A DNA stretch of 58,284 nucleotides from NCBI GenBank assembly GCA_001784155.1, contig MFPL01000011.1, forward strand, positions 1 through 58,284, given 5' to 3'. The stretch comes from Candidatus Levybacteria bacterium RIFCSPLOWO2_12_FULL_41_12 (GTDB lineage: Bacteria > Patescibacteriota > Microgenomatia > Levybacterales > UBA12049). The notes beneath the pieces are model-generated. The model did no database searches. It was not told where the DNA came from and worked only from the letters and a program-made list of their open reading frames with translations. This document shows, piece by piece, positions 1 through 20,632 of this stretch (positions are counted from its first letter, which is position 1; the number at the start of each line of letters is the position of its first letter). The position numbers and the translations under genes were made by a program.

Positions 1-88
1 AATAGGTTTTCTGATCGCAAAGAAGAATATAAATATGCCAAGGCATACCTTGAAAAAATGGGTCAGCAAACCCTGAGCTTGTCGAATG

Positions 89-161
89 GGTGGATGACGG
101 GGATCGAACCCGCGGCCGCCTGGACCACAACCAGGTGCTCTACCACTGAGCTACATCCACC
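89..161 (-). tRNA. tRNA-His (GTG)
   Basis: Minus strand GTGGATGTAGCTCAGTGGTAGAGCACCTGGTTGTGGTCCAGGCGGCCGCGGGTTCGATCCCCGTCATCCAC; loop contains GTG; G-1 opposite C73. Confidence 0.95.
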
Positions 162-418
162 ATGTTTGCATAAATCTCGTCTCTAACTTCTCTTCCTGAC
201 CCACTTTTAAAGTATTTTTCTAAAGTCCTTGCTTCTAACCTACTATTAACCACTTCTACATGTATCATTTCAAACGGTCCTCTATTTAATGTGGACTTAG
301 TCGAAATATTACCCTTATCATGTTGAGCAAGCCTTCGATTTATATTATCAGTAAATCCCGTATAAAACTTACCGTCCTTTATGCTTCTTAAGATGTAAAC
401 GCAATATTCGGTTTTCAA
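140..418 (-). CDS. Small GIY-YIG nuclease (UPF0213/YhbQ-like); 3' end runs into the tRNA-His gene
   Basis: YCVYILRSIKDGKFYTGFTDNINRRLAQHDKG motif; TTG start; last codons and stop lie in the tRNA 5' half. Confidence 0.85.
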   Translation of the reverse strand: MKTEYCVYILRSIKDGKFYTGFTDNINRRLAQHDKGNISTKSTLNRGPFEMIHVEVVNSRLEARTLEKYFKSGSGREVRDEIYANMVDVAQW

Positions 419-467
419 TGCTCTACACTGACCTGCCTGCCGGCAGGCAGGGCTACATCCACCATGC
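419..467 (-). pseudogene. Partial tRNA-His 5' half duplicate interrupted by palindrome CCTGCCTGCCGGCAGGCAGG
   Basis: tgctctac-actga[cctgcctgccggcaggcagg]gctacatccaccatg versus intact tgctctaccactgagctacatccaccatg at 137-165. Confidence 0.85.
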
Positions 468-3980: not shown

Positions 3981-4000
3981 TTTGAGCGGGATAGGGGAGT
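3981..4000 (-). pseudogene. tRNA-Gly 3'-end fragment, copy 1
   Basis: tttgagcgggataggggagt identical to 4222-4241 (3' end and flank of the intact tRNA-Gly). Confidence 0.85.
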
Positions 4001-4084
4001 TACTTCGATTTCACTCAGTATAAACTTCTCCTCCCCCAAACTATAATTCGTTAGTCTCACGCGAATGGTGAGCCTGTCGAATCC

Positions 4085-4106
4085 AGAGCGTGATAGGGGA
4101 GTCGAA
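4085..4106 (-). pseudogene. tRNA-Gly 3'-end fragment, copy 2
   Basis: gagcgtgataggggagtcgaa versus intact gagcgggataggggagtcgaa. Confidence 0.75.
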
Positions 4107-4225
4107 GTCACAAGTTCTGCTCCGCAGCCTCGCGACCCCGCCTCCGAACTAATGTTCGTCCGGCAGGTTCGACTACCATCAAAAAAAGAATTTCCTAGAA
4201 CTTTCGTTCTAAAAAATTCTCTTTG

Positions 4226-4961: not shown

Positions 4962-5225
4962 CTATTTCAGTTTGGAATAATTATCAAGAATCAATCTCCT
5001 GAATCTATAGCCAATTCCAGACTTTAGAAATAGTTCTCTTTTACCTGCGCAAAGCTCACAATAAAAACTTTCAAAGTATATCAGCTCCCAAGGCTTATTA
5101 CTCTTTGTGTATGTCGATAAGCCACTATTATGTTCTTTTAACCTACTCTTTACATCCTTAATGGTAAGCCCAACGTATGTCTTCTTTGGACTTTTTAAAC
5201 TTTTCAGAATGTAAACGATATACAT
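4962..5225 (-). CDS. Small GIY-YIG nuclease located between tRNA-Leu and tRNA-Pro
   Basis: YIVYILKSLKSPKKTYVGLTIKDVKSRLKEHNSG. Confidence 0.85.
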   Translation of the reverse strand: MYIVYILKSLKSPKKTYVGLTIKDVKSRLKEHNSGLSTYTKSNKPWELIYFESFYCELCAGKRELFLKSGIGYRFRRLILDNYSKLK

Positions 5226-10836: not shown

Positions 10837-10844
10837 TTTTAGTG

Positions 10845-10940
10845 CTGCCGGTCTTGGATTCCCGTTTACCCCGCATACGGGGCTAGTCGGGACAAGTCGA
10901 ACTCCCGCTTTCTTCGGGACAAGCAAAATAGATTATCCTA
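10845..10940 (-). pseudogene. Candidate 3' half of a split, inactive tRNA-Gln with palindromes
   Basis: Minus strand ends AATCCAAGACCGGCAG; ACCGGCA is a perfect complement of TGCCGGT at 11348-11354. Confidence 0.6.
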
Positions 10941-10947
10941 GAAAAGG

Positions 10948-11018
10948 CTGGGAGACTAGGATTCGAACCTAGATAGTAAGATCCAAAGTCTTACGTCCTA
11001 CCATTAGACGATCTCCCA
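10948..11018 (-). tRNA. tRNA-Gln (TTG)
   Basis: TGGGAGATCGTCTAATGGTAGGACGTAAGACTTTGGATCTTACTATCTAGGTTCGAATCCTAGTCTCCCAG. Confidence 0.94.
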
Positions 11019-11261: not shown

Positions 11262-11354
11262 TTTCAAAGTCAGTCCCGTTTACCCCGCATACGGGGCTGG
11301 CGGGACAAGTTGTCCTATTTACTCCGTCTTGCGGAGCCATTAGACGAACCGGCA
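11262..11354 (-). pseudogene. 5' half of a split, inactive tRNA-Gln with two palindromes
   Basis: Minus: TGCCGGTTCGTCTAATGG[CTCCGCAAGACGGAG]TAAATAGGACAACTT[GTCCCGCCAGCCCCGTATGCGGGGTAAACGGGAC]TGACTTTGAA. Confidence 0.75.
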
Positions 11355-20239: not shown

Positions 20240-20311
20240 GGACTCGTAGCTCAGCGGTAGAGCGCTTCGTTGACATCGAAGAGGCCAGAGGTTCGACACC
20301 TCTCGGGTCCA
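20240..20311 (+). tRNA. tRNA-Val (GAC)
   Basis: GGACTCGTAGCTCAGCGGTAGAGCGCTTCGTTGACATCGAAGAGGCCAGAGGTTCGACACCTCTCGGGTCCA. Confidence 0.95.
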
Positions 20312-20314
20312 CAA

Positions 20315-20575
20315 ATGGCATTTGTTTATATACTTCAATCTCTAACCAACTCCCGATATTACATTGGATCAACGAACAATCTTGATAGAAGAATTAATGA
20401 ACACAATCAGGGAAAATCAGGCTATACAAGATTCACTAGGCCATTTAAGTTAGCGTTTGCAAAAGAATTTTCTACCTCAAGGGAAGCAAGGCAAATTGAA
20501 TATAAACTTAAAAAGTTGAAGAGCAGAAAAATTGTAGAGAGAATTGTTTCTAGCGGAGAGATTCGAATTGGTTAG
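20315..20575 (+). CDS. Small GIY-YIG nuclease starting 3 nt after tRNA-Val
   Basis: AFVYILQSLTNSRYYIGSTNNLDRRINEHNQG; the open frame also extends upstream through the tRNA. Confidence 0.87.
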   Translation: MAFVYILQSLTNSRYYIGSTNNLDRRINEHNQGKSGYTRFTRPFKLAFAKEFSTSREARQIEYKLKKLKSRKIVERIVSSGEIRIG

Positions 20576-20632
20576 AGCGGTCCGATGTTCATCGGACAGG
20601 TCACCCCGATGTACATCGGGATCGGGTCCACA
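20563..20632 (+). pseudogene. tRNA remnant with two palindromes and the tRNA-Val 3' end
   Basis: TTGGTTAGAGCG-GTCCGATGTTCATCGGAC-AGGTCA-CCCGATGTACATCGGG-ATCGGGTCCACA; CGGGTCCACA repeats 20304-20313. Confidence 0.7.

Follow-up and report, generated by a model that had tools for sequence, protein, structure and literature searches.

Small GIY-YIG nuclease genes in the genome of Candidatus Levybacteria bacterium RIFCSPLOWO2_12_FULL_41_12 are probably homing-type selfish genes that are at home in tRNA genes and preserve the function of the latter by carrying or rebuilding the tRNA, a reading to which we assign a probability of about 0.68. The evidence comes from a tRNA-His locus at the start of the window, i.e. 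the 58,284-nucleotide stretch analysed in the current work (contig MFPL01000011.1, here contig C11 of genome G000), from further loci in the window and the remaining genome, and from relatives in the same family and phylum.

The tRNA-His locus at the start of the window

On the minus strand, the locus consists of GTGGATGTAGC, the palindrome CCTGCCTGCCGGCAGGCAGG, TCAGTGTAGAGCA, a GIY-YIG open reading frame and an intact tRNA-His, the sequence reading exactly in the order described by a first-pass annotation of the same DNA. Its features are as follows (window positions, except where contig C9 is indicated):

452..462, minus strand: displaced 5' part of tRNA-His, nt 1-11, GTGGATGTAGC, identical to the first nucleotides of the intact tRNA-His
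432..451, no strand assigned: 20-nt perfect palindrome CCTGCCTGCCGGCAGGCAGG, which splits the D arm of the displaced tRNA-His half; a dispersed repeat with 5 copies in the genome
419..431, minus strand: displaced 5' part of tRNA-His, nt 12-25, TCAGTGTAGAGCA, one G fewer than the intact copy
140..418, minus strand: GIY-YIG nuclease gene 1, 92 aa, TTG start (PF01541 61.6 bits, over cut-off)
88..160, minus strand: intact tRNA-His(GTG) (ARAGORN; Rfam 68.7 bits), the sole one found in the genome census
1..46, minus strand: N-terminal end of GIY-YIG gene 2, located 3' of tRNA-His and continuing on contig C9 at 36-326 (contig overlap)
C9:357-373: displaced 3' end of tRNA-His beyond GIY-YIG gene 2, 17 nt identical (sequence identity)

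The last codons of GIY-YIG gene 1 (ATG GTG GAT GTA GCT CAG TGG TAG) run into tRNA-His, and the D-loop TAG of the intact tRNA serves as its stop codon, which bears out the earlier statement that the open reading frame ends inside the tRNA. When the displaced half is aligned with the intact tRNA around the palindrome, 24 of 24 positions match, with a score of 33.0 compared to a maximum of 20.0 in 60 shuffles; the match is therefore not due to chance. The palindrome that breaks this half, already recognised in the first reading and located at 451-432, is the longest perfect palindrome of the window. Contigs C11 and C9 have 81 identical terminal bases in common, and across this joint the row becomes: displaced tRNA-His half, nuclease 1, intact tRNA-His, nuclease 2, displaced 3' end. 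The overlap thus places a nuclease gene on either side of tRNA-His, with a displaced end beyond each.

This architecture supports the earlier proposal of a minimal, integrase-free nuclease unit within a tRNA gene, with the displaced 5' half left outside on one flank and the tRNA made whole again on the other. The insertion point had been assigned to the D arm, but is more probably the anticodon loop, because the displaced half in the closest relative (G054, Candidatus Levyibacteriota, whose nuclease is 68% identical to that of the window) is kept up to nt 34 and displaced halves at many other loci end there. The displaced half of the window has apparently lost nt 26 to about 32.

Two other classes of element were considered for this cassette and rejected. 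An integrase-type tRNA element would not fit a cassette of about 400 bp with a single open reading frame and with no integrase or 3' att site, and a phage origin would not fit phage records that give distant matches only, with one viral contig.

The PF01541 cut-off is exceeded by 16 small GIY-YIG genes of the genome. Among the GIY-YIG nucleases Y8, Y19, G21 and R29 are invariant and E67 is present in at least 90%, and with these conserved catalytic-type residues the proteins belong to the GIY-YIG nuclease superfamily. NCBIfam provided no name for them. The product of gene 1 is modelled by AlphaFold with a pLDDT of 90.6, and its nearest solved folds are Slx1 and UPF0213. Given that the protein is a bare GIY-YIG domain, nearest in structure to the branched-DNA nuclease Slx1, its sequence specificity is not obvious.

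Further cassettes, displaced halves and insertion sites

The genome of 853 kb encodes, besides UvrC, 16 small GIY-YIG genes, at least 10 of which have a tRNA on the same strand within 250 bp, compared to about 0.3 expected (P about 1.5e-13). Three further GIY-YIG genes of the window adjoin tRNAs, namely those for Gln, Val and Leu/Pro:

11265..11354, minus strand: displaced 5' part of tRNA-Gln, acceptor TGCCGGT, with hairpin insertions, ending ..CTTTG in the anticodon loop
10991..11260, minus strand: GIY-YIG gene of the tRNA-Gln cassette, 89 aa, ending inside tRNA-Gln
10946..11018, minus strand: intact carried tRNA-Gln(TTG), acceptor TGGGAGA
10844..10945, minus strand: displaced 3' part of the native tRNA-Gln, acceptor ACCGGCA, the perfect complement of that of the displaced 5' part
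20240..20312, plus strand: intact tRNA-Val(GAC)
20315..20575, plus strand: GIY-YIG gene after tRNA-Val
20566..20631, plus strand: displaced 3' part of tRNA-Val, with hairpins in place of the anticodon and T arms
4962..5225, minus strand: GIY-YIG gene between tRNA-Leu(TAA) and tRNA-Pro(TGG), with no clear displaced half

The tRNA-Gln cassette represents the clearest case, in which a nuclease gene and another tRNA-Gln stand between the two halves of the native tRNA-Gln. Considering that the 40 distinct tRNAs identified in the genome all have different anticodons, each being found once, every intact tRNA beside a nuclease gene is probably the only one of its kind in the genome.

Several other loci bear related traces. 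At window positions 4000-4225 of the minus strand, downstream of tRNA-Gly(TCC), repeats of the 3' end of this tRNA (..ACTCCCCTATCxCGCTC) occur together with palindromes and with no nuclease gene nearby. On contig C6, a displaced 5' part (acceptor TCCGTGA) and a 3' end (TCACGGA) of tRNA-Asn are present at separate nuclease loci 11 kb apart (127.9 kb, L022, and 138.9 kb, L016), as if parted by a larger insertion or rearrangement. On contig C2 (124.9-125.7 kb, L031) a GIY-YIG gene with no tRNA neighbour lies directly downstream of the RNase P RNA gene, the P3 region of which bears hairpin TCCGATGTTTCATCGGA, of a kind known from displaced tRNAs. In a relative (L173, G027) a tRNA-Val/GIY cassette is followed by a displaced tRNA-Val 3' part and then by the truncated start of the same nuclease gene; this second copy beyond the displaced part indicates that cassettes can enter older cassettes.

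The Rfam scan did not recover displaced halves, and local alignment to the neighbouring tRNA, with a shuffled null, was used instead. A same-isotype displaced 5' part upstream of the nuclease gene was found above this null at 32 of 57 loci in which the nuclease gene precedes the tRNA, more being visible by eye. These parts end either in the anticodon loop (Asn, Asp, Gln, Glu, His, Leu and Lys) or in the T loop (Ile, Val and Gly), and nearly all displaced parts have one arm broken or replaced by a hairpin, the sequence of which varies between nuclease lineages. In the anticodon-loop group the hairpin breaks the D arm, at position 22 in four loci with CCTGCCTGCCGGCAGGCAGG, and in the T-loop group hairpin GGTCGCCTNAGGCGACA stands in place of the anticodon arm. 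The latter hairpin occurs 14 times in 73 genomes and 0 times in the reversed control, nearly always at T-loop cassette loci. In a separate observation (L090, G042), a tRNA-Ser(CGA) that is apparently functional has hairpin GGTCGCCTTAGGCGAC as its variable arm.

The palindrome CCTGCCTGCCGGCAGGCAGG is a dispersed repeat in the genome and the family, with 22 of 26 sampled copies away from tRNAs, and is for this reason regarded as a repeat of the host that lodges in dispensable stem-loops. The break in the displaced half stands as first reported, but the palindrome is a dispersed host repeat, and similar hairpins are found in nearly all displaced halves. This near-universal occurrence is left unexplained by a host repeat and may mean a role for the hairpin. 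The palindrome might be functional and not a product of decay, serving either as operator (comparable to the I-TevI operator) or 5' hairpin of the nuclease gene, or else interrupting the direct repeat so that the cassette is not lost, an account that we consider possible but on the doubtful side. A D- or anticodon-arm hairpin located 12-26 nt ahead of the start codon in nearly all displaced 5' parts, and the near confinement of GGTCGCCTNAGGCGACA to cassette loci, speak for such a function, yet the sequences differ by lineage, CCTGCCTGCCGGCAGGCAGG is mostly found off tRNAs, and palindromes are also present in displaced halves that have no nuclease gene.

The intact tRNA appears to have more than one source. 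In the window (His) and at about 20 other loci, such as those for Leu at L060 and L239, it shares its 5' half with the displaced piece, the sequence around the insertion site being the same in both at about 20 loci, while at about 15 loci its acceptor stem differs from that of the displaced half, from which it follows that a whole second tRNA was brought in there. The earlier suggestion that the element carries a copy of the displaced half therefore applies to the window and the former set of loci, but not to the latter. In G054, the displaced half (GTGGGCG...GTTG) agrees fully with the corresponding segment in the whole tRNA-His of G051, and the intact tRNA-His of G054 has another acceptor, GTGGCAT. 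Perfectly complementary displaced 5' and 3' acceptors were confirmed at seven loci, five with a nuclease gene (L019, L172, L058, L092 and L093) and two with none (Cys and Thr), the intact tRNA being different from the displaced pair. Several relatives (loci L204, L210, L077 and L059) have a tRNA-His with an aberrant T loop, e.g. GCGGGAGCGTTACCCG in place of the usual TTCGA, the T loop of the window tRNA-His being of the usual kind.

Partial duplicates in the absence of a GIY-YIG gene, which the first-pass annotation had named as evidence against insertion, do exist: nested or partial tRNA duplicates of this type are found for Cys, Thr and Val(CAC) in this genome and for Asn in L305. Most of them are read as putative remnants. 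The tRNA-Cys and tRNA-Thr(TGT) of the genome are each nested, with no nuclease gene, within an older tRNA of their own isotype, at its anticodon loop (contig C3 about 12.6 kb, L253 and L271; contig C10 about 10.7 kb, L254; also L070). The approximately 95 nt that surround the inner tRNA show homology between the Cys and Thr loci and in G051 (79% mean column identity), with the general sequence CCCAG..TTAGAA.TGCGGGATCCCG..tRNA..TTCTGGGA, and this surround looks like a structured RNA that is absent from Rfam.

Empty sites, for which the first-pass annotation had proposed a search, were encountered in relatives: genomes G035, G065 and G069 have a single whole tRNA-His and no half. No orthologous empty site could be identified via a neighbouring gene, synteny being lacking, and the sites were found by tRNA sequence only; owing to this poor synteny most of them are not strictly orthologous. 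Three states of tRNA-Asn are seen within one genus: the gene is uninterrupted in G067 and G069, contains a group I intron at nt 34/35 in G066 (RF00028, 75.7 bits) and likewise in G068, and is replaced at its site by the nuclease cassette in G051, the leader of which matches that of G066. As for homing genes, the nuclease gene is present at its target site, with displaced halves on its flanks, and empty alleles are present in relatives, strict orthology being provided only by the shared Asn leader. In the family, tRNAs for Asn, Leu(CAA), Thr and Asp also occur with a group I intron that has no open reading frame and interrupts the anticodon loop, and the sequences indicate that the cassettes occupy group I intron sites but keep the tRNA by copy and not by splicing.

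The cassettes may even be relics of group I introns that lost the ribozyme and kept the GIY-YIG gene, the tRNA having been rebuilt by duplication; as a statement of origin this is compatible with tRNA-resident homing genes, but we consider it rather unlikely to be the case. The site at nt 34/35 and the isotypes (Asn, Leu(CAA) and Asp) overlap with those of the introns, but the T-loop cassettes lie outside the usual intron sites, and no match to the RF00028 core was found in 15 stretches around nuclease genes or genome-wide in G000. The window cassette itself was rejected as a group I intron for want of an RF00028 match.

Distribution and lineages of the nucleases

The gene is present in 54 of the 61 genomes of the family and in 191 of 287 genomes of the phylum. 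Of 130 distinct family copies, 86 have a same-strand tRNA within 250 bp and 2 an opposite-strand one, while tRNA adjacency was observed for 21 of 28 loci in a phylum sample, so that the association of this subfamily with tRNA genes across genomes, which the first reading had called for, was indeed found. Two layouts can be distinguished. Where the nuclease gene precedes the tRNA (44 family loci), only a tiny gap separates the two, and the nuclease stop codon often falls within the tRNA, mostly as the TAG of nt 8-10. Where the tRNA comes first (53 loci within 250 bp), the spacer is mostly 50-100 nt and a displaced part is seldom seen, about 38 of 42 such loci having none.

A quick tree of 179 nucleases was generated from about 80 columns, single clades of which are not to be trusted. 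Layout required 12 changes on this tree compared to a mean of 37.5 when shuffled, and isotype required 28 changes compared to 38.9 in one layout and 32 compared to 43.7 in the other (reached by 0 of 500 shuffles for each trait), while the host-genome label required 109 changes against 106.8 by chance. GIY-YIG lineages therefore track tRNA isotype and layout and not the host genome, the gene tree following the target as is seen for homing endonucleases that spread horizontally. A lineage associated with tRNA-Ser combines Patescibacteria with metagenome-assembled genomes assigned to Kryptoniota, Ignavibacteria, Neomarinimicrobiota and an alphaproteobacterium. Such a pattern would be predicted for target-specific, horizontally spreading nucleases, and not for a housekeeping gene.

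These distributions weigh on the remaining alternatives. Where tRNA loci contain dispersed palindromes, ordinary recombination or repair could make the duplications, the GIY-YIG genes being passengers that tend to land by tRNAs and are not the cause of the splitting, and the nuclease-free duplicates (Cys, Thr and Val(CAC); Asn in L305), the palindromes of the same kind that are dispersed in the genome and the presence of one Y1 transposase agree with this. We nevertheless judge it improbable, as it would have to contend with the 86:2 same-strand bias, with isotype-specific nuclease lineages across phyla, with stop codons that are common to nuclease and tRNA, and with recurrent insertion into the anticodon or T loop. 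Strict same-strand adjacency, overlap with the tRNA and the match between lineage and isotype could also be taken to mean that the nucleases are host genes for tRNA maturation or turnover, co-transcribed with their tRNA, but the gene is patchy and absent at comparable tRNA loci of relatives, the tree is not host-like, many isotypes per genome have no nuclease gene and the displaced tRNA halves would be left unexplained, all of which makes this very improbable. Two further ideas each fit some loci and were set aside: staggered cuts made by the nuclease, giving target duplications of 20-47 bp, and a Y1 transposase that would mobilise the whole cassette by way of the palindromes.

Proposed mechanism, known systems and significance

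Homing within tRNA genes may be envisaged in four steps. First, the nuclease of a given lineage would cut the tRNA gene of its own isotype, with the break in or close to either the anticodon loop or the T loop. Second, repair of this double-strand break, templated by the element, would copy in the nuclease gene, with the tRNA halves acting as homology arms. Third, with an outcome visible in the architecture, a whole tRNA of the same isotype would come to lie beside the nuclease gene, either from a copied 5' half or brought in whole, and the resident half or halves would be pushed outside; there being no self-splicing intron, it is this whole tRNA that keeps the function. Fourth, and visible in the sequences, the displaced halves lose their function, usually through a hairpin in, or replacing, one arm. 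The architecture, the association of lineages with particular tRNA targets, the empty sites, the single-copy tRNAs, the intact catalytic-type residues and the fold are observed directly, while DNA cleavage, homing repair, mobility and dependence of the host on the element are what we infer. Since the tRNA is single-copy, loss of the tRNA of the element should be lethal, and since the nuclease frame ends inside the tRNA, an RNase P cut at the tRNA 5' end would remove the stop codon, so that tRNA maturation by RNase P is predicted to suppress the nuclease.

Several observations speak against this scheme. At the approximately 20 loci where the restored tRNA equals the displaced half around the insertion site, the nuclease would nonetheless have to spare the restored copy; most tRNA-then-nuclease loci have no displaced part; nested tRNAs exist with no nuclease gene; the bare, Slx1-like domain has no obvious specificity; and the scarcity of strictly orthologous empty sites has been mentioned above.

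The closest known parallel is found in fungal mitochondria, where mobile endonuclease ORFs (mORFs) make hybrid genes (Allomyces atp6; Glomus atp6, atp9, cox2 and nad3; PMC3630166). There, likewise, an endonuclease gene comes with a replacement piece of the host gene, which can be foreign, and the native piece is displaced beyond the endonuclease gene and decays (PMC3630166). By analogy, the cassettes may be classed with such hybrid genes, in that an endonuclease gene and a replacement piece are combined and the native piece is displaced, though hosts and genes differ: mORFs concern 3' pieces of protein genes in fungal mitochondria (PMC3630166), whereas the cassettes concern 5' halves or whole tRNAs in bacterial tRNA genes, with up to 16 nuclease genes per genome and with hairpins in the displaced arms.

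SegB is a free-standing phage GIY-YIG homing endonuclease that is encoded beside tRNA genes and cuts within them; the available part of its description concerns phage tRNA clusters and describes no isotype-specific nesting or displaced halves (PMC13096335), and the cassettes are located on bacterial chromosomes. In the rRNA genes of CPR bacteria, non-intron insertions that encode GIY-YIG proteins occur at stem-loops, sparsely and outside homing (PMC11270868); the bacterial group is the same as that of the cassettes, but the genes are for rRNA and the paper makes no mention of tRNA genes. Group I introns of tRNA anticodon loops (RF00028) have the same site, several of the same isotypes and the same genus in common with the cassettes, but preserve the tRNA by self-splicing, whereas the cassette does so by a whole tRNA copy. 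Synthetic cleave-and-rescue and home-and-rescue drives, comparable as an analogy only, combine a nuclease and a working copy of its essential target in one unit (PMC7968924). Such drives are engineered and their recoded rescue copy is essential (PMC7968924), whereas recoding is not consistently seen in the cassettes, the carried tRNA differing from the displaced one in about 15 loci and being identical in about 20. A search of the open literature, with subscription journals and preprints outside its scope, retrieved no report of tRNA-nested GIY-YIG cassettes in bacteria. The principle of an endonuclease combined with a replacement piece is already known from fungal mitochondria, and tRNA genes in bacteria would represent a new setting for it.

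If the tRNA-resident homing reading is true, it would describe an endonuclease-driven gene replacement that is bacterial and chromosome-wide and acts on genes that are conserved like no others. It would account for the persistence of 16 small nuclease genes in a genome of 0.85 Mb, provide a route for the exchange of tRNA genes among streamlined bacteria, and yield many natural nucleases with a predicted tRNA-gene target. For annotation, split tRNA remnants that contain hairpins and lie beside a GIY-YIG gene can be taken as the mark of a cassette. A more far-reaching version, to which we give somewhat less than even odds, is a natural home-and-rescue system, in which families of isotype-specific nucleases would spread in Patescibacteria because they break essential tRNA genes that exist as a single copy and then provide the sole working one; if so, the host would come to depend on the element, and its tRNA set would gradually be replaced.
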